This document shows positions 2,761 to 53,714 of a stretch of 55,257 nt of DNA, in pieces (position 1 is the first letter of the stretch; each line of letters starts with the position of its first letter). Made by a program: the position numbers and the translations under genes. The stretch is from positions 1 through 55,257 of IMG/VR virus record IMGVR_UViG_3300025325_000026. One strand, given 5' to 3'. The stretch is from a virus. The notes below the pieces were generated by a model. The model was not told where the DNA came from and did no database searches. It saw only the letters and a program-made list of their open reading frames with translations.

Positions 2761-4496
2761 TGAAAGATTACGCATCCATAGCTATAGAATACGCTAAAGC
2801 TGCCATTGCCGATAAAAAAAATAAGCGGCATGGCCGATGGATACGATTAGCGGCACAGCGGTTCATTGATGACCTAAAGAGATCGAAAGCGAAAGAATGT
2901 AACTTTAAGTTTGATAAATGGAACGGCGATAATACCTGTGATTTTATAGAAAAACTGCCACACGTTGAGGGTAAATGGGATTCTCCAACAATCATACTTA
3001 TCCCGGCACAGTGTTTTTTTATTGTTCAACTATTCGGATTCCGTGATAAAAAGACAGGTTATAGGCGTTTTACTTCTGCATTGTTTGCAACAGCAAGAAA
3101 AAGTGCCAAATCAACTATTTCAGCGGCAATAATGCTTTATTGTAAATGCTGCGAAGAAGAGCCAGGGGCGCAACTATTGAGCGCGGCAACTACCTTTCCA
3201 CAGGCTGCAATAATATTTACAATAGCAAAAAAGATGGTGGAAAAAACCCCTGATTTAAGAGAGGCATTCGGGCTTGAAGTATGGTCAAAGGCGATTACAA
3301 GGATTGAAACAGGAAGTAGCTTTAAGCCGATCCATGCAAAGGCAAGCACTCAAGACGGGCTTAACCCTTCCCATACCGCGCTTGATGAAATCCACGCCCA
3401 CAAAACGGCAGACCTATTAAACGTATTGACATCGGCGGCAGGAGCGCGGTCTAATCCGCTGTGGCTTTATACCACCACAGAGGGATACACTTCGCCGGGA
3501 CCGTGGGGGGAACTGCGCGATTTCGCAAAAAAATTACTTCTTGGCGTTTTCGGTAATGACGCCGATCATTTTCTCGCTTTGTTCTGGGCTGTTGACGATG
3601 AAGACAAGTCGGCCGGAATAAAAGCCGATGACGACTTCGATGAATCCGTATGGGTAAAAGCCAATCCGTTGATTGAATCGAATCCTAATCTTCTGACGGC
3701 GATACGTAAAGAAGCGATCGAAGCAAAGCAGATGCCGTCAAAGCTTGCAGAATTTAAGATTAAAAGACTTAACCGTCAAGCTTCTACCGCTGGAGGATGG
3801 ATTGATCTTATCAAATGGCGGGCCTGTTCGTCAGAAATTGACCTTGAGTTTCTAAAGGGTTATCCATGTTATGGTGGTCTCGATTTGGCAAGTACAATGG
3901 ATTTAGCGGCATTCAGGCTACTATGGGATGTGGAGGGGATGTATTATACTCACGGCTGGCGCTGGTGTCCTGAAGATGCAATAAAGTACCGCACCGAGCG
4001 CGGGACCGTTCCGTATGCTGCATGGGTAAACACTGGATTGATCAAGCGGACAGAAGGGAACGTAATTGATTACGAAGTAGTAGAAAACGACATAAAAGAA
4101 CTTGATTCGAGGTTTAAAATACAGAAAATAGCCTTCGATACGTGGAATGCGGCAGGGACGGCAAATAATTTAACAAAGAGCGGAATGAAATTGGTAGAGT
4201 TCATCCAAGGCACGAAAAGCTTTCACCCGGCGATGAAAAAACTTGAAGAGCTATACGTATCTGGTAAGATAAAGCACGGCGGCGACCCGGTATTAAATTG
4301 GTGCGCGTCGAACATCGTTGCCCGTAGAGATGTAAATCTTAATATGGCACCCGATCGAAAAAAATCTGTAGATAAAATAGATGATATGGTTGCACTGCTT
4401 ATGGCTATAGGAATTACAATTGAAAATCAAGATCCTGTAAAATCAGTTTATGAGGAAATGGAATACAATGAGATTGTCAATAGGATGTCTTTGTAA
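2760..4496 (+). CDS. terL: Phage terminase large subunit
   Basis: 578 residues from the ATG at 2760, which overlaps the small-subunit stop by one base. The N-terminal ATPase shows a deviant Walker A (TARKSAKST, about residues 110-118), as in HK97-type terminases, and Walker B (ALDEIHAH, about 207-214). The C-terminal RNase-H-like nuclease shows metal-binding aspartates in GGLDLAST (about 372) and DKIDDMVAL near the end. It translocates DNA into the prohead and cuts the concatemer. Length and order match Terminase_1 proteins. Confidence 0.93.
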   Translation: MKDYASIAIEYAKAAIADKKNKRHGRWIRLAAQRFIDDLKRSKAKECNFKFDKWNGDNTCDFIEKLPHVEGKWDSPTIILIPAQCFFIVQLFGFRDKKTGYRRFTSALFATARKSAKSTISAAIMLYCKCCEEEPGAQLLSAATTFPQAAIIFTIAKKMVEKTPDLREAFGLEVWSKAITRIETGSSFKPIHAKASTQDGLNPSHTALDEIHAHKTADLLNVLTSAAGARSNPLWLYTTTEGYTSPGPWGELRDFAKKLLLGVFGNDADHFLALFWAVDDEDKSAGIKADDDFDESVWVKANPLIESNPNLLTAIRKEAIEAKQMPSKLAEFKIKRLNRQASTAGGWIDLIKWRACSSEIDLEFLKGYPCYGGLDLASTMDLAAFRLLWDVEGMYYTHGWRWCPEDAIKYRTERGTVPYAAWVNTGLIKRTEGNVIDYEVVENDIKELDSRFKIQKIAFDTWNAAGTANNLTKSGMKLVEFIQGTKSFHPAMKKLEELYVSGKIKHGGDPVLNWCASNIVARRDVNLNMAPDRKKSVDKIDDMVALLMAIGITIENQDPVKSVYEEMEYNEIVNRMSL

Positions 4497-5271: not shown

Positions 5272-5300
5272 TATTAATATTGGTTATTAAAGAGGAAAAT

Positions 5301-6419
5301 ATGATAAGAAATTTAAAAATTGAATGCTTTGTTAGGGACAATGATCTTCATGCAAAAATAAGGGCGTCGGTACGGCTGTACCGGGCTTGTCTTCGAGCGG
5401 CGTTTTCGTATTGCGCATTGGCCGAGACTGCCGGGGCTGAAATTGTAGCAGAAAATGGCAATGTCACTGTTAAGCCAAATGATGAAAAGGCGCGAGAAAT
5501 ATTATCGGCCTGTGTCGGACATTCTGGGAAAATAAAGTATTACGAAATGTACCATTGGATGAAAGAGCTTTATCCATCCCTCATATCAAATTGCTATTCC
5601 AAAATACAGTATATCATCGGCAAAATGATGACCATGAAGGATCAGGATATAAAGAAGTGCCAGAAAAAATTTCTTATCGTTAATGGCAAAAGGGCTTTCG
5701 CGCAATTCAACCGCTCTGGAATTCCCATTAAGAGCGGCATGGCAAAAATAGACGGGCACTTGTTAAAATGCCGGTGGGATAAAGATATCGGAGAAGTAGA
5801 GTTCACGACGAATAAGATGGACTCGTCAACCTATTACGCTTTTTCTTCTCTCCGGGAAGGCTGGGAAGGTTGGAGTATAAAAGATTCGTACCTGTCTTTC
5901 GATGAGGATAAAAATAAGATCGTAGTCATCCTGTCATACGAAAGACCGGATACTCCGACAAATATTGAGCCTGAAAAAGTAATGCATGTTGAATTCACCG
6001 ACGACAAAGAGATGTTTATCACTTGTTATACTGATGATAAATGGTCTGCAAGGCCGTTTTCGGCAGCCGGTATAATTGGATATCTTGAAGAGATGGAGCA
6101 AATTTATAGCCGTTACTGGTCTGAATTCAAAAGTTATGAACGCAGGGAACGGAAACAGCGTAACCATGTCAAAGAAAAACTTAACAGGTATACTGAACGC
6201 CGGGCTAATGCAGAGAAGAACAACAATCATTTATGGAGCAAGAGGATAGTTGATTTTGCGCGGCAGCAATGCGCCGGTAAGCTCGTTGTTGTTAATCTTC
6301 CAGAAAAAACCTTATTTGATTTGCCTTATGGATGGTTCGATTTTAAAACAAAGCTTGATTACAAGATGAAGGAAATCGGCGGTACGGTAAGTTTCGTAAC
6401 TGTCGATAAAGACAAATAG
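5301..6419 (+). CDS. Cas12/TnpB-like protein, RuvC-substituted and C-terminally truncated
   Basis: 372 residues from the ATG at 5301 (AAAGAGG upstream). The N-terminal part (RLYRACLRAAFSYCALAE, then AGAEI, residues 25-48) and the central beta-rich part resemble the recognition and wedge regions of compact type V effectors. The C-terminal third has the TnpB/Cas12 order: RuvC-I-like strand (HVEFTDD, 229-235), a long basic helix (276-310), the bridge-like SKRIVDFARQQ, RuvC-II-like LVVVNLP (329-334), then WFDFKTKLDYKMKEIGGTV. Known active members have Asp in RuvC-I and Glu in RuvC-II; here Glu231 and Val331 stand there. RuvC-III and the zinc finger are absent. I infer a guide-RNA-directed DNA binder without nuclease activity. 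A tracr-like RNA and a CRISPR array follow within 900 bp. Alternative: a decaying TnpB relic. Confidence 0.72.
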   Translation: MIRNLKIECFVRDNDLHAKIRASVRLYRACLRAAFSYCALAETAGAEIVAENGNVTVKPNDEKAREILSACVGHSGKIKYYEMYHWMKELYPSLISNCYSKIQYIIGKMMTMKDQDIKKCQKKFLIVNGKRAFAQFNRSGIPIKSGMAKIDGHLLKCRWDKDIGEVEFTTNKMDSSTYYAFSSLREGWEGWSIKDSYLSFDEDKNKIVVILSYERPDTPTNIEPEKVMHVEFTDDKEMFITCYTDDKWSARPFSAAGIIGYLEEMEQIYSRYWSEFKSYERRERKQRNHVKEKLNRYTERRANAEKNNNHLWSKRIVDFARQQCAGKLVVVNLPEKTLFDLPYGWFDFKTKLDYKMKEIGGTVSFVTVDKDK

Positions 6420-9341: not shown

Positions 9342-10319
9342 ATGATTACAATGCGAAAAATGGCATCGAGAAAAATTGACAACAAGATAAACGTGCAGAA
9401 CAAAGATGATGAGGCAACCATTTACTTGTATGGTGACATCGGAGGATGGTTTGGGATTGATTCGACTGAGTTTATCAAGGAGTTAAACGGAATTACCGCA
9501 AAAACCATCCATCTTCGCGTTGATTCTGGCGGCGGCGACATTTTTACGGCGCGGGCAATGAAAACAGCTATAATGCAGCATAAATCGAAGGTAATCGCGC
9601 ACGTTGACGGTCTCGCAGCTTCTGCGGCATCATTTCTCATTATGGGTGCCGATGAGGTTGAAATTGTTGATGGCGGATTTTTGATGATTCACAATGCACT
9701 ATCGTTTCTCGACCTGTTAGGTTATTTCAACATTGATGACCTTAATAAAATTGCAGAAACAATTAGCAAGGAAATAGATCTTCACGGAAAAATAAATCAG
9801 TCAATAGCCAACGATTACGCAAAAAAGACCGGAAAAGAAGCCTCCGAGTTTCTTGATTATATGAACAAAGAAACATGGTTTACCGCTCAGGAGGCGCTTG
9901 ATATTGGCCTTGTGGATCGAGTATACGATGGCGATCCGGTCGAAAACAAATACGACCTTTCGATATATAATAACGTGCCGGAAATCATGCGAGCGCGAAG
10001 TAAGGTGAATTCAGGTGATGAAAAAGAGATTAACGAGCGCGATTTAGAGAAAGACCTGCGAGATGCCGGTTATTCCCGTAATCGAGCTAAAAATATAGTG
10101 GCAAAGGTTTTTCGTGACGAGCGAGACGCCCGAAGCGAACCGGAAACTCATGATGTGCGAGATGCACAAACTGAGGCCGGTGCCGATCAGCGAGATGCTG
10201 GTGAGCAGCCACAAGCAGAAGTGGTGGACGAGGTTGACCATATCGAACAGGCGAAAAAATTGGTCGATCCAGTTGTCGAATTACTGGAAAAAACAAAACA
10301 AATCACAAAAAAGGAGTAA
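9342..10319 (+). CDS. Prohead maturation protease, ClpP-like (S14)
   Basis: 325 residues. The ClpP fold shows YLYGDIGGWFG, the oxyanion strand RVDSGGGDIFTA, the catalytic serine in GLAASAASF (about residue 94) and histidine in MIHNA (about 118). The C-terminal 110 residues are charged, with repeated RDA motifs, and probably act as an internal scaffold or delta-like region cleaved during maturation. It lies 15 bases after the portal gene and 6 bases before the capsid gene, the classical HK97 order. Confidence 0.9.
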   Translation: MITMRKMASRKIDNKINVQNKDDEATIYLYGDIGGWFGIDSTEFIKELNGITAKTIHLRVDSGGGDIFTARAMKTAIMQHKSKVIAHVDGLAASAASFLIMGADEVEIVDGGFLMIHNALSFLDLLGYFNIDDLNKIAETISKEIDLHGKINQSIANDYAKKTGKEASEFLDYMNKETWFTAQEALDIGLVDRVYDGDPVENKYDLSIYNNVPEIMRARSKVNSGDEKEINERDLEKDLRDAGYSRNRAKNIVAKVFRDERDARSEPETHDVRDAQTEAGADQRDAGEQPQAEVVDEVDHIEQAKKLVDPVVELLEKTKQITKKE

Positions 10320-10324
10320 GCTGT

Positions 10325-11635
10325 ATGAAAACTATTACTCAGCTTAAGGACGAATTGAAGCAACTGTTAAAGGCTTCGGCGGATATCGATGCAAAAGCAA
10401 CTGCTGAAAATCGCGGTCTTTTGGAGGCTGAAAAGTCTCTTAAAAATCAACTTCTCGATAAAGTTGAAGAGATCCAGGACGAAATCAAGGTGCGTGAGCG
10501 CGAAATCCGTATCGCCGATGCAATCAATCAACCCGGCGATGCAATGACTGTTCCGAAAACGGAGCGTGTGGATATGGGTCGAGACAGCCGGTCGAAAGAC
10601 AAGTTCGGTTCACTTGGTGAAAACGTCGCCGCGATGATCAATGCAAGCCGTCCCGGTGGAACATTTGATCCGAGACTTCACAACGCCGCTACAGGAATGG
10701 GCGAAACCGTTCCGAGTGATGGTGGTTACCTGTTGCAGAAAGATTATGCCGACAAGTTGACCGAAAATCTTTTTGACAACAGCCTGATACTCGGCAAGTG
10801 CGAAAGAATTCCTATTTCTGCGAATTCAAACTCCATCACGATCAACGGCTATGACGAAACCAGCAGGGCGTCGAACACGTTCGGCGGAATCACCATTTAC
10901 AACAACGATGAGGCAGACGAGAAAACCGCGTCGAAGCCAAAGTTCCGGCAGGTTGAACTGAAGCTGAAAAAATACATCGGTCTCGTGTACCTTACCGATG
11001 AGCTTCGCCTTGACGTTCCCGCAATGGAAGCCCGCATATCAAACGCTTTCGGATCGGCGTACGATTTCAAAGTTCAGGGCGATCTTGTTAACGGAACAGG
11101 CGCAAACAACATGCTCGGCGTCATGAATGCCGGGAGTCTTGTTCCAGTTCCAAAAGAAGCCGGACAGAATGCCGATACGATTCATGCCGAAAATATCGTC
11201 AAGATGTATTCGCGTCGGTTCGCTGCACAAACAGCAAATTACGCATGGTATTACAATCAGGACATCGAGCCGCAGCTGTTTACCATGACAATCGCAGCTG
11301 GTACCGCCGGAATCCCTGTTTTCATGCCTGCTGGCGGCCTTAACAACGCCCCGTATAACACGATACTCGGTCGTCCGGCATATGCCATTGAGCAGTGTTC
11401 GACGCTCGGCGACAAGGGCGACATCATCCTTGCAAACTTCAAGGATGGGTACATTGTCGCTGAAAAGGGCGGAATGCAGAGTGATGTTTCAATACATGTA
11501 AAATTTGTCAACGACGAAACGGTACTTCGGTTTGTACTTCGTCTCGACGGTCAGCCGTGGCGCGCAACTCCGCTCACCCCGCATAAGGGTAGCAATACGT
11601 TGTCACATTTCATCACTCTCGACGCAAGGGCGTAA
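10325..11635 (+). CDS. Major capsid protein, HK97 fold
   Basis: 436 residues. The first 75 residues are a charged coiled coil (TQLKDELKQLLKAS ... VEEIQDEIKVRERE), the delta-domain scaffold normally removed by the prohead protease. The remainder has HK97-fold landmarks: VPSDGGYLLQKDYAD, the FRQVELKLKKYIGLVYLTDEL strand and helix, and the WRATPL ending. Start at ATG 10325. Codon choice is visibly more GC-rich than the flanking small genes, as expected for a highly expressed protein. Confidence 0.92.
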   Translation: MKTITQLKDELKQLLKASADIDAKATAENRGLLEAEKSLKNQLLDKVEEIQDEIKVREREIRIADAINQPGDAMTVPKTERVDMGRDSRSKDKFGSLGENVAAMINASRPGGTFDPRLHNAATGMGETVPSDGGYLLQKDYADKLTENLFDNSLILGKCERIPISANSNSITINGYDETSRASNTFGGITIYNNDEADEKTASKPKFRQVELKLKKYIGLVYLTDELRLDVPAMEARISNAFGSAYDFKVQGDLVNGTGANNMLGVMNAGSLVPVPKEAGQNADTIHAENIVKMYSRRFAAQTANYAWYYNQDIEPQLFTMTIAAGTAGIPVFMPAGGLNNAPYNTILGRPAYAIEQCSTLGDKGDIILANFKDGYIVAEKGGMQSDVSIHVKFVNDETVLRFVLRLDGQPWRATPLTPHKGSNTLSHFITLDARA

Positions 11636-35412: not shown

Positions 35413-35610
35413 ATGATAAAGAAAATTACAGTATGGCTATGCACCTGTTTTAAGTGCGAAAACAGTTGGAAAGCCCGAGTTGATAATCCAAAGGTGTGCC
35501 CATTTTGCCATTCTCGAAAATGGAACGATGATGTTGAAAACAATCCCCGTATCGGAAAATGCCCACCGAACAATAAAAAAGTGGTGCAGGGCAAAAGGGA
35601 TGACGTTTGA
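35413..35610 (+). CDS. Small zinc-ribbon protein
   Basis: 65 residues: LCTCFKCENSWKAR ... VCPFCHSRKW gives two knuckles (CxxC and CxxC) as in rubredoxin-like phage peptides. The ATG lies six bases after a TATATT box, without a ribosome site. Its 3' half overlaps another reading frame that is also plausibly coding. Confidence 0.6.
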   Translation: MIKKITVWLCTCFKCENSWKARVDNPKVCPFCHSRKWNDDVENNPRIGKCPPNNKKVVQGKRDDV

Positions 35611-35749
35611 GCAGTTCTTTGATTCATGGATCGAGCATGTTGCGAATAAAAAACAGCAGCAATTTTATGACTCGCTGCCAGATCCGCGTAAGCTTAAAAA
35701 CGTTAAGCCGTTGGAAAATGTTAAGATAGATAAGTTTTATAAAAAGTAA
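35528..35749 (+). CDS. Small RHH-like protein
   Basis: 73 residues from ATG at 35528, overlapping the zinc-ribbon gene out of frame. MLKTIPVSENAHRTIKKWCRAKGMTFEQFF-type sequence gives strand-helix-helix, like ribbon-helix-helix regulators. The ending is Lys-rich. It lies just upstream of the first cassette junction. Confidence 0.5.
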   Translation: MMLKTIPVSENAHRTIKKWCRAKGMTFEQFFDSWIEHVANKKQQQFYDSLPDPRKLKNVKPLENVKIDKFYKK

Positions 35750-35825
35750 CAGTTCACCATTGAGGTAGTTAGCCAAAATAAACCGCGCTGAGATCATAGT
35801 TCGGCGCAAAAAGAAAGGTACAATT

Positions 35826-36140
35826 GTGATTAACGAAAAAGTATTGCAGCATGTTACAGCGTTCAATTCTGCAAAGGGATACTCTGCCGACGAAGCCACA
35901 ATCATCGAATCCATACGTGAGGCAAAGCAAGTATGGCGCGTCAACGAATCAAAGCGGCGCTGGTGGATTGATTATACTGCCGTCGTGGAATTAAACGGTA
36001 TGCTCATTGGGTATCGTGATGCTGAAACAACCGGCGATATGTCGGCAGAAGAAACGGGCTTTAAGTTCGATACCGGAAGCATTTGCGAGTACGAGGCAAA
36101 AGAACAGGTCGTAACGGTGTATGCGCCGAAAGGCAATTAG
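35826..36140 (+). CDS. Cassette 1 gene, unknown function
   Basis: 104 residues, GTG start with AAAGG upstream. MINEKVLQHVTAFNSAKGYS, then an alpha/beta protein with two Trp-rich strands (RRWWIDYTAVVELNGMLIGY), somewhat like immunity or small ligand-binding proteins. Not recognised. It lies between the junction GTTAGCC (35768) and attC-like site 1. Confidence 0.6.
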   Translation: MINEKVLQHVTAFNSAKGYSADEATIIESIREAKQVWRVNESKRRWWIDYTAVVELNGMLIGYRDAETTGDMSAEETGFKFDTGSICEYEAKEQVVTVYAPKGN

Positions 36141-36157
36141 GATGCGCGGTTTACATC

Positions 36158-36221
36158 GGCTAACACGTAAAGCATGTCATGCCCAAAGCGGCACGAACAT
36201 GCGTTTACGGGAACGTTGTAT
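36158..36221 (+). repeat. attC-like site 1
   Basis: R'' GGCTAAC (36158-36164) and R' GTTGTAT (36215-36221). The arms 36166-36177 and 36197-36209 pair over 12 bases with one extrahelical G, the asymmetry integrases read in attC. The centre ATGCCCAAAGCGGCAC (36179-36194) is identical in site 2. A wider GGTTTACA/TGTAAACC repeat (36149-36237 region) surrounds it. Confidence 0.65.
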
Positions 36222-36256
36222 AACACTTTGTAAACCTTTTGAATTGTAGGCGGCGC

Positions 36257-37141
36257 ATGAAGATTGCGAGAGTATTCCCACGAAAGACACGGTTGTCACC
36301 CACCGATAGTCTTGCGTATTACGATGTCCCCGGTTGCTTCGACGAGGCCGACGAGGTACACGTATCTACTCTGTTTACGTGGGATATGGGTCGCGCTGAT
36401 TATCTTGCGGAGCAGTGGCGACACGTCGCGCCTATTAAATTCGGAGGTCCAGCTTATAATCAACCGGGCGCAGTATTCGTGCCTGGAATGTACGTTCGTG
36501 AAGGTGCGGTAATAACGTCTCGCGGGTGTCCGAATCGGTGCTGGTTTTGCTCCGTGTGGCAGCGTGAACCCGGCCTTTTAGAGCTGCCCATTGTGGATGG
36601 TACGAACGTTCTCGATGATAACATCCTGGCCTGTTCTGAGCGGCATATACGCGGGGTTTTTGATATGCTCATGAGGCAGCGCGGGCGTGTGGAATTTACT
36701 GGCGGATTAGAGGCAAAGCGGCTTCTGACTTGGCACGTAGATCTACTATCTAAGTTGCGGCCCGCTCAGATGTTTTTCGCGTTTGATACGCCCGACGACG
36801 AGGAGCCGCTCAGAACCGCTTCTACGATGCTTAGGTCGGCCGGGTTCACTCGTCAAAGTATGCGGGTGTATTGCCTTATCGGATTTCCGCGAGACACCTT
36901 CGAAGCGGCAGAAGTGCGACTGCGCCTTTGCGTAGAATTAGGTTTTTTCCCTATGGCGATGCTCTGGCGCGACGTGAAGAACACTGTTGACCCAACGTGG
37001 CAGAAGATTCAACGCGAGTGGGCGCGACCCGCGATTATATACCGAAAATGCGCCGCTGAAAATCAAGGTAGTTTACAAAGCGTCATACAACAGCGCAAGC
37101 CAGCAATGCCCAAAGCGGCACTACTGGCGGGTTGCGCGTGA
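36257..37141 (+). CDS. Cassette 2 gene: radical SAM protein
   Basis: 294 residues from ATG at 36257 (AGGCGG upstream). SRGCPNRCWFCSVW (about residues 89-102) carries the CxxxCxxC motif that binds the 4Fe-4S cluster and SAM. The barrel continues with VEFTGGLEAKRL, AFDTPDDEEPL and YCLIGFPRDTFE. It resembles a phage-associated radical SAM family of unknown substrate. Its last 19 codons are encoded by attC-like site 2, so the cassette end forms the protein tail. It is the only obvious enzyme in the cassette row. Confidence 0.8.
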   Translation: MKIARVFPRKTRLSPTDSLAYYDVPGCFDEADEVHVSTLFTWDMGRADYLAEQWRHVAPIKFGGPAYNQPGAVFVPGMYVREGAVITSRGCPNRCWFCSVWQREPGLLELPIVDGTNVLDDNILACSERHIRGVFDMLMRQRGRVEFTGGLEAKRLLTWHVDLLSKLRPAQMFFAFDTPDDEEPLRTASTMLRSAGFTRQSMRVYCLIGFPRDTFEAAEVRLRLCVELGFFPMAMLWRDVKNTVDPTWQKIQREWARPAIIYRKCAAENQGSLQSVIQQRKPAMPKAALLAGCA

Positions 37142-37149
37142 CGTTGTAC
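37085..37149 (+). repeat. attC-like site 2
   Basis: R'' ATACAAC (37085-37091) and R' GTTGTAC (37143-37149). Arms GCGCAA/TTGCGC and GCCAG/CTGGC pair with three extra bases on the right side. The 16-base centre is identical to that of site 1 (37106-37121). R'' is the exact reverse complement of the R' box of site 1, as expected for one cassette. Confidence 0.7.
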
Positions 37150-37202
37150 GAAATTTTTGCGCCTGGAGAAAATAGTTCTGGCGCTTGCTTTTGAGGTGTT
37201 AA

Positions 37203-37490
37203 GTGGATTTAGTTGAAAAAATAAACGAAGTTTCATTGAGTGCCTTAAATAACCCGTTTTGTGAAATACTTGTTCGCAACGGGTGGTCGCAGATACATCG
37301 TTTCGTAAAGGGGCATCCAACCAAAGGCGAATCGTTTGGCGTTCCTACGTTACAGACATCCCCCATCACAAATTACGAAACAGGGGTAATAGTAGAGCAG
37401 TTTATTGACAGTATGTTTGAATTAACCGCGCCAGAAAGAGAATTAAGGACGGCGCAAAAACTTCGTACAACAGCCGCAGGTGTCAATTGA
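37203..37490 (+). CDS. Cassette 3 gene, unknown function
   Basis: 95 residues, GTG start with GAGGTG upstream. Starts MDLVEKINEVSLSALNNPFC; mixed alpha/beta, no known domain. Its C-terminal codons run into attC-like site 3, as with cassette 2. Confidence 0.55.
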   Translation: MDLVEKINEVSLSALNNPFCEILVRNGWSQIHRFVKGHPTKGESFGVPTLQTSPITNYETGVIVEQFIDSMFELTAPERELRTAQKLRTTAAGVN

Positions 37491-37520
37491 AACGTGCCGC
37501 TATGCCGCGAACCGTTATGC
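37465..37520 (+). repeat. attC-like site 3
   Basis: R'' GTACAAC (37465-37471), the exact reverse complement of the R' box of site 2. R' is probably GTTATGC (37514-37520). The inner arms CGC-A-GG (37475-37480) and CCGCG (37505-37509) pair with one extrahelical A. Shorter than the others, about 56 bases. Confidence 0.55.
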
Positions 37521-37565
37521 GAAATGCCCGTTTTGAAAACAATTTATTATAGGCGGCGCAAGAAA

Positions 37566-37826
37566 ATGAAGACAGAAAAACCAGAAGAATGCGAAGCATG
37601 CAGATTTGAAACCGACGATCTTACTTTTTACGATCACGGGCCGGGATATCCAGAAGGTGCTGGACATTGGATTTGTAAAGTATGCGCTTGCACTATGTCA
37701 GGCAATGCTCATCGAAGTCCTGGATGCTACAAAGAGTATGAAGTTTTGCATATGTTGTCATATTGCACCAATTTGATTTTGGATGCACTAAAAAAGAAAG
37801 AAGCGCCGCAAGGTATTAAGGAATAA
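37566..37826 (+). CDS. Cassette 4 gene: small Cys-rich zinc-binding protein
   Basis: 86 residues. ECEACRF, then WICKVCAC, a paired-knuckle zinc-binding layout, and a C-terminal helix. The ribosome-site context TAGGCGGCGCA is shared word for word with cassette 2. Function unknown. Confidence 0.55.
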   Translation: MKTEKPEECEACRFETDDLTFYDHGPGYPEGAGHWICKVCACTMSGNAHRSPGCYKEYEVLHMLSYCTNLILDALKKKEAPQGIKE

Positions 37827-37838
37827 AATTTTTACATC

Positions 37839-37973
37839 AACCAACAGCCAAAGGAAAGCCATGCCGATTACCAGTCGCGCGACTTCTGGCCGTACCAAAA
37901 TGTCGATAGCCAGCAGCAAACGGGGACGCCCTTAGTATGGGTCGGCATGGCTTCCGTTTGGCAAACGTTGCAC
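37839..37973 (+). repeat. attC-like site 4 (long form)
   Basis: R'' AACCAAC (37839-37845), R' GTTGCAC (37967-37973). The arms 37848-37867 and 37942-37961 are complementary at 18 of 20 positions, with a 74-base loop between, like the long attC sites of some integrons. Here R'' does not mirror the upstream junction, so a deletion or mis-set boundary is possible. Confidence 0.55.
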
Positions 37974-38004
37974 GCAATTGGCAATTCACAATATTGGAGG
38001 TTTT

Positions 38005-38193
38005 ATGCTTAACATAGATATTCTATGGGTGAGTTATTATCTGCAAAAACAGGGTGCTGCGAATAAAATTCTCGATTCATTCGAACGCATAAAAAGGTTC
38101 GTTGAGGAGACGCAAAAAACGCCCACCAACAAACGCAGTGCGGCTCCGAAGACTTCACCCAAACCGGCGAAGCGCCGACTTCGCGCTACGTAA
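38005..38193 (+). CDS. Cassette 5 gene, small basic protein
   Basis: 62 residues from ATG at 38005 (TGGAGG upstream). N-terminal helix (VSYYLQKQGAANKILDSFERI), then a Lys/Pro-rich tail (SPKPAKRRLRAT) encoded by attC-like site 5. It resembles small nucleic-acid-binding peptides. Function unknown. Confidence 0.5.
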   Translation: MLNIDILWVSYYLQKQGAANKILDSFERIKRFVEETQKTPTNKRSAAPKTSPKPAKRRLRAT

Positions 38194-38202
38194 ACGTTGT
38201 AG
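38124..38202 (+). repeat. attC-like site 5
   Basis: R'' CACCAAC (38124-38130), R' GTTGTAG (38196-38202). Stems CGAAG/CTTCG, GCG/CGC and ACG/CGT are separated by small bulges. R'' does not match the upstream R'. The R' box also serves as a -35 element (TTGTAG) for the promoter that follows. Confidence 0.4.
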
Positions 38203-38226
38203 GCAATAAATTTGTTATTTTATATT
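38197..38226 (+). promoter_or_regulatory. Promoter after the cassette row
   Basis: TTGTAG (38197-38202), 18 bases, TATATT (38221-38226). It would start a leader of about 145 bases before the gene at 38380. Confidence 0.5.
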
Positions 38227-38300
38227 ATAGTTGGAGCGTTATGGTGTGGGCCTCCCAGGTTAACAATGGTCCAAGCTGTCTTGCGAGTAAAATCCCTGTT

Positions 38301-39526: not shown

Positions 39527-40204
39527 ATGGGCTTTACAAAGCTTGACGATGGAATTTCAATGTCATCTATCATGTCTGAAGATGACTCCGTTTTTAAAGT
39601 GTGGATTTTAATTTTATCTCTTACCAAGCAAGATGGAATAGCTCCTATAAGTGCAATTGTTTTAGGTAAACTATCGTCTAAAAGTATGGATGAAATTGAT
39701 AGGTGCATCGATGTTCTATCTTCACCTGATAAATATTCAAGGACAAAAGATTTTGAAGGAAGAAGAATTGAAATAGTAAACGGTGGAATCAAGGTACTTA
39801 ATTATTTAAAATACCGAGAATTTTCATATTCTTCTAATCCTGAATCAGAGAGAAAAAGAGAATATAGAAAAAGAAAAAATACGGGACATGTCCCGGAATG
39901 TCCCGGACACTCTGCTTCTGCTTCTGCTTCTGCTTCTGCTTCTGCTTCTGCTTCTGGAACCAATATACCTCCAAGTCAAAACGAAGTTTTGTTGTATTGT
40001 AAAGAAAAGAACAACGAGGTTGATCCTGTAAAATTTTTCTCTTTTTACGAGTCAAAGGGGTGGATGGTAGGTAAAAATAAAATGAAAAACTGGCACATGT
40101 CGGTAGCTACATGGGTTAAGTCTGAACAAGAACAAAAAAAAGGTCAATATGCCGAACCTAAAAAACCACTTCCAATTTTAGATATTTTCGGAGATAAAAA
40201 ATAA
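39527..40204 (+). CDS. Replication initiator-like protein with Ser-Ala linker
   Basis: 225 residues. The N-terminal domain (FKVWILILSLTKQDGIAPISAIVLG ... GIKVLNYLKYREF) is a winged-helix of the kind found in phage replisome organisers; the C-terminal domain (EVDPVKFFSFYESKGWMVGKNKMKNWHMSVATWVK) matches the DnaD/DnaB-like tail that binds DNA and loader. A (Ser-Ala)7 linker separates them and is encoded by a hexanucleotide repeat. It abuts the helicase-loader gene, overlapping its start by one base. Confidence 0.75.
   Translation: MGFTKLDDGISMSSIMSEDDSVFKVWILILSLTKQDGIAPISAIVLGKLSSKSMDEIDRCIDVLSSPDKYSRTKDFEGRRIEIVNGGIKVLNYLKYREFSYSSNPESERKREYRKRKNTGHVPECPGHSASASASASASASASGTNIPPSQNEVLLYCKEKNNEVDPVKFFSFYESKGWMVGKNKMKNWHMSVATWVKSEQEQKKGQYAEPKKPLPILDIFGDKK
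39911..39956 (+). repeat. Hexanucleotide microsatellite TCTGCT x7
   Basis: Seven perfect copies of TCTGCT plus a partial one. Copy number changes alter the linker length of the replication protein by two residues at a time without shifting the frame. Confidence 0.9.
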
Positions 40205-51231: not shown

Positions 51232-51267
51232 TTTATCCCCTTCGTTGATTGTTGTCTCTAACCTATA

Positions 51268-51347
51268 ACTATAATATACATCAATCGTAATACGTTTGCA
51301 ATGCAATTTTGATTTATTTTTAAAAAAGTGTGTTCAAGTTAGAACAC
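51268..51347 (-). repeat. 80-bp perfect inverted repeat, left arm
   Basis: Exact reverse complement of 51584-51663. Each arm carries an outward promoter (TTGCAA-N17-TATATT) and the half or whole of a GTGTTC-N6-GAACAC operator. Confidence 0.95.
51273..51301 (-). promoter_or_regulatory. Leftward promoter of the reverse operon
   Basis: On the - strand: TTGCAA (51301-51296), 17 bases, TATATT (51278-51273). Identical to the rightward promoter in the other arm. Confidence 0.7.
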
Positions 51348-51583: not shown

Positions 51584-51663
51584 GTGTTCTAACTTGAACA
51601 CACTTTTTTAAAAATAAATCAAAATTGCATTGCAAACGTATTACGATTGATGTATATTATAGT
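51584..51663 (+). repeat. 80-bp perfect inverted repeat, right arm
   Basis: Exact reverse complement of 51268-51347; begins 2 bases after the RHH-like gene's stop. Confidence 0.95.
51630..51658 (+). promoter_or_regulatory. Rightward promoter
   Basis: TTGCAA (51630-51635), 17 bases, TATATT (51653-51658). Drives the gene at 51685, which has a normal GAAGGAG ribosome site. Confidence 0.7.
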
Positions 51664-51684
51664 CATACAAGAAGGAGAAATCTT

Positions 51685-52782: not shown

Positions 52783-52880
52783 GTATGCGGAAGTGATATT
52801 CCGTAAGTAATGTATGGCCGATTCGGCAGGGTAGGCCTATTATAATATTCCTATTGCGCCTGCAATATTATATTGCTGTT

Positions 52881-53714
52881 ATGGGAGAATTAACGGTAAC
52901 CGACCTATTCGGTACAAGAAATTTTGTTGATGTGGCAATTGAGCGCTTGCGGGTGCATGAGTGTATTGCAAAAAATATGAGTGATGACGGATACTGGGTA
53001 GGCATTTCAGGTGGAAAGGACTCTTCTGTGATTTATGACCTTGTAAAAAAGTCAGGAGTCAAAGCGACTTTTCACCATTCGCTTACAACGGTGGACGCTC
53101 CGGAAACCGTGCGACATATTAAAAATGATTATCCCAATGTTATTATTCACAGGCCAAAGGTTGCCATGCTCAATAAAATACGACAAGTTCGAACCGCTCC
53201 TCCGTCGCGCAATGGTCGCCGGTGGTGCTGCCGTGACTACAAAGAGCACTTCGGAACCGGCCATATGGTTGTTACCGGGGTTCGTGCTGGCGAATCCGCA
53301 CGGAGGTCGGGATATCGCGTGATAGAGCAATGCATGAGGGTAAAGACAAAAAGATTTATGCATTGCATTATTGATTGGACGGATGGAATGGTATGGGAAT
53401 ACATAAAAATAAACAATCTTCCTATCAATCCATTGTATTTACCGCCGTACAATTTCAATCGTGTCGGATGCGTTCTTTGTCCCCTTGCTCTTCCTGGTGT
53501 CGAAAAGCAAAGTCGTGAATGGCATCCAAAAATTGTAAATGCGTGGGAAAAGTCAATCAAGGCGTGGTTTGTTAGATTTGGAGATGAGTGTTGTAATATT
53601 GCAGGAATAAAAACACCTAGTGATTATTGGAGGTGGTGGCTGACCGGTCAGGCCGGAGCGCTTCCCGATGAAAATCAGGAAACATTAATATTTGACGAAC
53701 CGAAAGGGGTTTGA
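52881..53714 (+). CDS. PAPS-reductase/DndC-like PP-loop enzyme 2
   Basis: 277 residues from ATG at 52881, six bases after TATATT, hence probably leaderless. PP-loop VGISGGKDSSVIYDL (about 38-52), RWCCRDYKEHFG, VTGVRAGESARRSGYR and VGCVLCPLA give the typical PAPS-reductase family signature, with Cys residues suited to an iron-sulfur cluster, as in DndC. Distinct from the enzyme at 807 in length and in having no N-terminal zinc finger. Substrate unknown; DNA thio-modification genes (dndBDE) are absent. Confidence 0.8.
   Translation: MGELTVTDLFGTRNFVDVAIERLRVHECIAKNMSDDGYWVGISGGKDSSVIYDLVKKSGVKATFHHSLTTVDAPETVRHIKNDYPNVIIHRPKVAMLNKIRQVRTAPPSRNGRRWCCRDYKEHFGTGHMVVTGVRAGESARRSGYRVIEQCMRVKTKRFMHCIIDWTDGMVWEYIKINNLPINPLYLPPYNFNRVGCVLCPLALPGVEKQSREWHPKIVNAWEKSIKAWFVRFGDECCNIAGIKTPSDYWRWWLTGQAGALPDENQETLIFDEPKGV

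Follow-up and report, generated by a model that had tools for sequence, protein, structure and literature searches.

How did a row of integron-type gene cassettes come to lie in the genome of a tailed phage, and what kind of system moves them? A sequence-only reading had proposed such a row, without an integrase, in the DNA studied here, which we call the window: the full 55,257 bases of the IMG/VR virus record IMGVR_UViG_3300025325_000026. Our analysis leads us to conclude, with a probability of about 0.72, that this is a mobile integron-type gene cassette row in a tailed phage, and that it is part of a phage-associated variety of integron.

The cassette array and its phage setting

Terminase, portal, head protease, capsid and tail genes lie at 2–28 kb of the window, a gene for a 2086-aa protein at 28.7–34.9 kb, and genes for a helicase loader, exonuclease VIII, Sak4 and SSB at 40–47 kb. 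The cassette array sits between these two halves, and the terminase, portal, capsid and tail genes in its surroundings satisfy the criterion for a tailed phage. Five attC-type sites occur within 2.1 kb, at 36158–38202 (Table 1).

Table 1. Coordinates of the cassette array and adjoining features in the window
Feature	Position	Strand	Remarks
Two small overlapping phage ORFs (region 35413..35749)	35413-35610, 35600-35749	+	Upstream of array, outside any cassette
First junction G/TTAGCC, left edge of array	35768..35774	+	No attC hairpin before it
Cassette 1	35769..36215	+	R' GTTAGCC 35768, R'' GGCTAAC 36158-36164
Cassette 1 ORF	35826-36140	+	GTG start, 104 aa, unknown protein
Cassette 1 21-nt terminal inverted repeat, 5' copy	35768..35788	+	
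Cassette 1 21-nt terminal inverted repeat, 3' copy	36144..36164	-	Ends in R'' GGCTAAC
attC 1	36158..36221	+	R'' 36158-36164, R' 36215-36221; R2 E=6e-13
Cassette 2	36216..37143	+	R' GTTGTAT 36215, R'' ATACAAC 37085-37091
Cassette 2 ORF	36257-37141	+	Radical SAM protein, 294 aa, phrog_9298
Cassette 2 21-nt terminal inverted repeat, 5' copy	36215..36235	+	
Cassette 2 21-nt terminal inverted repeat, 3' copy	37071..37091	-	
attC 2	37085..37149	+	R2 E=2.5e-9
Cassette 3	37144..37514	+	R' GTTGTAC 37143, R'' GTACAAC 37465-37471
Cassette 3 ORF	37203-37490	+	GTG start, 95 aa, unknown
Cassette 3 21-nt terminal inverted repeat, 5' copy	37143..37163	+	
Cassette 3 21-nt terminal inverted repeat, 3' copy	37451..37471	-	
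attC 3	37465..37520	+	R2 E=7e-5
Cassette 4, hybrid, own ends mismatched	37515..37967	+	ORF 37566-37826, 86 aa
attC 4, long loop	37839..37973	+	R2 E=0.0065, match 37843-37969
Cassette 5, ends mismatched	37968..38196	+	ORF 38005-38193, 62 aa
attC 5	38124..38202	+	R2 E=0.039
5' leader of truncated sixth cassette, right edge of array	38196..38245	+	GTTGTAGGCAAT...TTATATTATAG

The integron rule, by which R'' is the reverse complement of R' at the cassette start, had been claimed to hold exactly in three cassettes. All three pairs are present, so that the rule is met in 3 of the 5 cassettes with 7 of 7 positions in each; the last two sites, described as fitting in shape without R'' identity, indeed have R'' boxes that mismatch their cassette starts. 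Equally well founded was the claim that attC 1 and attC 2 share a 16-base centre and have extrahelical bases: both contain ATGCCCAAAGCGGCAC, and their bottom strands are predicted to form attC-like hairpins with an R box, a short spacer, a 6-bp L stem, a one-sided bulge and an inner stem (stems were located with a duplex-energy scanner). The right half of attC 3 is degenerate and its stem weak. Several cassette ORFs run into the attC hairpins, and the stop codon of the radical SAM ORF falls inside attC 2. Many cassette leaders have an A/T-rich motif like TTTGAATTRTAG about 25–35 nt from the cassette start and before the ribosome site (in the window, for example, at 35789–35806 and 36236–36250), and cassettes may have their own promoter.

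We infer that the first junction, at 35768, is an attI-like or secondary insertion site. Insertion by IntI at a secondary site, attG, would account for a row of cassettes beginning at a bare G/TT with no attI. The term attG is used in PMC12901181.

A six-frame search of the window found no Phage_integrase domain, as the sequence-only reading had stated. The array therefore meets the criterion for a CALIN (at least two neighbouring attC sites without intI) and not that for a complete integron with intI in cis. The same reading had called integron cassettes in phages very unusual, which needs correction: Qi et al. (2023) had already reported such integrase-free attC clusters in 17 phages and found that 5 of 6 phage attC sites tested recombine with IntI1 (PMC9892861). 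The presence of integron-type cassettes on this phage is supported, and is of a kind already published in 2023.

A covariance-model search had been suggested as a check, and we ran one with models built from phage and from bacterial attC sites. Model R2 was built from the bottom strands of 17 phage attC sites, leaving out the window sites and the G010 copy of attC 2. Run unfiltered over both strands of the whole 55 kb, it gave the five array sites as its top five matches (E values in Table 1); the sixth match had an E value of 0.94. R2 also detects the arrays of L107, L108, L113, G003 and G004, some of which supplied training sites. It had no match in the Omnitrophota IntI arrays, a Vibrio array or the sites of Tetrasphaera phage TJE1, and gave a single weak match (0.005) in Polaribacter phage P12002L. 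Model R1, made from bacterial (Omnitrophota) attC sites and hence limited by taxon, detects the TJE1 sites (E 2e-6) and misses those of the window; this negative is weak because R1 misses the genuine Vibrio array too. Each model misses other lineages, implying that attC models are lineage-bound.

Related arrays and the mobile unit

Using the cassette proteins, the terminase and two attC centres as queries, we found about 15 contigs of varied phages with cassettes of the same type. Nine stand in a row in G010, about 10 in G004 and about 10, in two places, in G022; G003 and G019 also have arrays, and a 213-kb virus contig (L149) has more than 10 cassettes. In L149, nearly the same terminator-like hairpin (AAAGGTTGCCATTAAAACGGCAACCTTTTG) stands immediately before each of two arrays, near 3800 and 10430, as though a single entry site had served for both. 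The DNA of the window array matched nothing in 50,697 phage and 72,556 plasmid records, and the related L113 array had no DNA match among the phage records.

Cassettes 1 and 2 recur at 92–96% identity in phages with unrelated backbones. G010 carries both, cassette 1 over 400 nt at 95.5% and cassette 2 over 943 nt at 94%, with three other cassettes between them, and a tblastn comparison of G010 with the window found no homology beyond these two. The cassette 2 match extends from the left GTT through attC to the next GTT. That of cassette 1 extends from GTT to just past R'': its protein has a 96% identical copy in L021/G010 and a homologue in a third phage-like contig, L195, and the attC centre agrees between G010 and L195 and differs in the window. 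The window copy of cassette 1 has therefore exchanged its attC, which implies that processes besides recombination at G/TT also act. The 5' leader of cassette 4 is common to different genes in G010 and G022, and the G003 array has a site to which the cassette 5 ORF is 42% identical over 60 aa.

Two related arrays contain exact duplications. In L113 (634/4594), two cassette copies are identical over 317 nt from GTT to GTT, with 3 nt in common before; in L022 (3967/4296), a tandem copy has the same GTT limits. The moving unit is therefore the gene plus its downstream attC. Cassette 2 and the duplications meet this definition, with G/TT bounds, and cassette 1 does so only in part. These comparisons show that a complete cassette consists of one small gene and a downstream attC hairpin bounded by G/TT, which moves between phages and duplicates as an exact unit. 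The sequence-only reading would have been refuted by the absence of any covariance-model hit together with the absence of cassette-precise gain or loss in relatives; neither occurred, and its interpretation as integron cassettes is supported.

The terminase relatives G003 and G004 have structural genes in common with the window and carry arrays behind their tail genes, in the opposite orientation and with other cargo than in the window; the placement in G003 assumes a circularly permuted contig. Most array left edges end in TA/GTT without a hairpin. We found no empty site of the same phage.

The window cassettes encode a radical SAM protein, the 104-aa unknown protein and other small unknown proteins. 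In its close relatives (96, 78, 63 and 51% identical) the radical SAM gene has an attC just behind it; the other relatives searched are in phages, without an attC behind the gene. The related arrays carry genes for DNA methylases and for proteins with DUF551, DUF3850/ASCH, acyl carrier or RyR-type domains. Only for the methylases is a role in counter-defence a reasonable guess.

Terminal repeats and hairpin polarity

Beyond what had been noticed from the sequence, the complementarity between cassette ends extends over 21 nt rather than 7. Positions 12–21 pair at 10 of 10 in each of cassettes 1, 2 and 3 (30/30 together). Of the window's GTT...AAC pairs whose R boxes match 7/7, just one more reaches 10/10 at these positions, an unrelated perfect inverted repeat at 51 kb, and in 20 shuffled windows no pair reached 9 or more.

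In 65 cassettes, chosen by their repeats, the R box (1–7) is followed by a spacer of 4 nt, in which mismatches are regular, and by an outer box (12–21) that pairs in 55–63 of the 65; from positions 22–23 on, pairing is at background. This selection accounts in part for a fixed A at position 11 of the 5' copy, which should be read with caution, but not for the G in the other copy. We therefore rely on cassettes chosen by attC hairpins and R boxes only. In these, the phage arrays average 7.1/10 at positions 12–21, with 60% at 8 or more (n=53), compared with 3.3/10 in Omnitrophota IntI integrons (n=29), 2.1/10 in the Vibrio array (n=10) and 1.75/10 in other CALIN phages (n=4); none of the 43 control cassettes reaches 8. 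The bacterial controls represent one phylum and one Vibrio array. The two ends do not match in cassettes 4 and 5, nor in a considerable minority of the cassettes of relatives. Inverted repeats of 21 nt at cassette ends, well past the 7-nt R boxes, appear to be new; a text search of openly available papers turned up none described for integron cassettes, which is weak evidence of absence.

The hairpins differ in a further way. In bacterial attC sites the first extrahelical base lies on the L'' arm of the bottom strand, and when the extrahelical bases of a Vibrio site were inverted, IntI1 activity shifted to the top strand, at the R'' box (PMC2727003). In predicted folds the bulge was on the opposite, 5' arm in 29 of 32 scorable phage sites (29:3), as against 3 of 40 bacterial sites (3:37; p=2e-13). 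In the window, attC 1, 2 and 4 have the first extrahelical base on the 5' arm, and thus do not meet the canonical attC criterion; in the bottom strand, AAC is followed by G, which is also the case in most attC sites. As far as predicted folds can tell, a strand-choosing extrahelical base on the opposite hairpin arm appears to be new.

Reading the arrays in reverse, with attC upstream of the gene, would make the polarity canonical. We rejected this because, in the duplications and in cassette 2, the attC that moves together with the gene is the downstream one, and because most left edges lack an attC. Array sense was set by the 5' box of the repeat, and an ORF of at least 40 aa lies on the strand so defined in 56 of 62 cassettes. 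The exact duplications imply cutting at R' despite the inverted polarity. Either the enzyme reads the hairpin unlike IntI, or these bulges do not act as extrahelical bases.

The sedentary chromosomal integrons with IntI that served as controls (Omnitrophota L171, L174, L176, L177, L183 and L184; Vibrio MK672802) share with the window type the R''/R' rule, G/TT junctions, folded attC sites with L boxes and an extrahelical base, and one gene per cassette. Unlike it, they possess IntI, their end complementarity stops at the R box, and their first extrahelical base is on the 3' arm (37/40). The published phage CALINs (Tetrasphaera phage TJE1, Polaribacter phage P12002L, Pseudoalteromonas phage H101/PH101 and MW202573) likewise have an attC array without an integrase, and cargo that includes DNA methyltransferases. 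However, TJE1 and MW202573 lack the 21-nt terminal repeats, and TJE1 fits the bacterial attC model that misses the window type. The array belongs to a separate type, defined by 21-nt terminal inverted repeats and inverted hairpin polarity; since these differ from every control tested, the array and its relatives stand as a new variant.

Recombinase, hosts and rival explanations

Nearly all the other array contigs that we searched also lacked a tyrosine recombinase. The exception is L108, in which phage replication genes are followed by a 272-aa recombinase (9998–10816) and then by the array. The stop codon of the recombinase is 6 bases before the first junction, G/TTATGC, and the cassette that begins there closes with GCATAAC and the shared attC centre. 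Its best alignments are to archaeal XerA and XerC-type recombinases (NCBIfam recomb_XerA_Arch and XerC-like 4a8e), with IntI second, but it scores below all curated NCBIfam cut-offs. IntI4 residues 177–241 correspond to only 17 of its residues, about 48 fewer between the aligned parts, so that the IntI-specific insertion seems to be absent. Its relatives in viral contigs are itself and one 24% match, and the link to an array rests on this one case. Because inverted polarity and cutting at R' do not fit the known strand rule of IntI, we consider it most likely that the recombinase at work is not a canonical IntI but perhaps an enzyme resembling the XerA-like one of L108; the acting enzyme and its function are inferred.

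On the host side, a scan of 84,980 species with one attC motif returned a single bacterial assembly, an Omnitrophota MAG. Both of its array contigs are phage-like: in one, the array is preceded by the same gene as in phage G004, and the second carries cassette 1 along with tail-fibre-like genes. R2 matched none of the 116 other Omnitrophota genomes that were tested. Bacterial hosts of this array type may exist outside the sampled genomes. As a separate observation, 18 of 384 Omnitrophota genomes have genuine IntI with chromosomal cassette arrays (for example, G144 contig 3); we found no open literature on integron integrases with cassette arrays in this phylum.

We can practically dismiss the idea that the sites are palindromes arisen by chance, or transcription terminators, between small phage genes. 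The hairpins are intergenic, and one related array starts just behind a terminator-like hairpin, but several ORFs extend into the hairpins, and the integron rule, the covariance model, the duplications and the controls are all beyond chance; the model and the duplications refute this explanation. It is quite unlikely, too, that the array is a fossil, captured once by recombination and now moved only by homologous recombination between phages. Such a history would account for the hybrid cassettes 4 and 5, the degenerate attC 3, the swapped attC of cassette 1, the leaders common to different genes and the lack of a recombinase in the window genome. It is at odds with the exact GTT-bounded duplications and precise junctions in relatives, and with the end complementarity that each cassette keeps while sequence varies between cassettes, which needs continuing selection or a mechanism.

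There remains the question of whose cassettes these are. They might be ordinary host integron cassettes taken up by phages from an unsampled bacterial lineage, with host IntI doing all the recombination. IntI1 does recombine other types of phage attC site (PMC9892861), genuine IntI is present in the phylum to which two array contigs were binned, and the G after AAC is that of most attC sites. Nevertheless, we regard this origin as doubtful: the scan of species with one attC motif reached only an assembly whose contigs are phage-like, the 116 other Omnitrophota genomes tested do not match the phage attC model, seven Omnitrophota IntI arrays lack the repeats, six of them tallied as having the opposite bulge side, and the polarity does not fit the IntI rule. 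A bolder possibility, which we consider less likely than not, is a self-standing viral integron: a cassette pool of the phages' own, with 21-nt repeats and attC sites of inverted polarity, moved by a phage-encoded XerA-like recombinase rather than bacterial IntI, through which phages would trade accessory and counter-defence genes singly.

In the mechanism that we infer for the phage-associated cassette row, an attC single strand would fold into a hairpin and a tyrosine recombinase, acting in trans for the window phage, would cut it at G/TT; cassettes would leave as circles and reinsert. The 21-nt repeats would make the attC stem longer once the cassette is a free circle, but not within the array, because the repeats of one cassette pair only with each other and the ends of array neighbors differ; the longer stem would favor reinsertion. 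The cargo would be phage accessory genes, some directed against host defence, and the position behind the tail genes in related phages would mark a variable cargo locus. We have observed neither recombination nor circles nor expression of the cassettes, and these steps are inferred.

Gene exchange between phages is usually ascribed to homologous and illegitimate recombination. If the model is true, the rapid reshuffling of accessory genes would find an explanation in a site-specific cassette system common to unrelated phages. The array type would also offer a natural test of whether the extrahelical base chooses the attC strand that recombines, and would separate the cassette logic of integrons from the IntI enzyme.

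Several features of the window lie outside the array. A search with the gene at 39527–40204, before the helicase loader, found no relatives, and an Rfam search gave nothing. This gene contains a Ser-Ala repeat (SASASASA..., 39900–39980), possibly an unstable microsatellite. A TnpB-like RNA-guided endonuclease gene (5280–6419) lies between terminase and portal, with no transposase found beside it; G003 has a 74% identical copy in the same position, and G004 has no match. Two different genes of the phosphoadenosine phosphosulfate reductase family are present (807–1691 and 52854–53714). Finally, two 84-nt stretches (51264–51347 and 51584–51667), separated by 236 nt and 99% complementary, form an inverted repeat that resembles the termini of a small mobile element or a hairpin locus.
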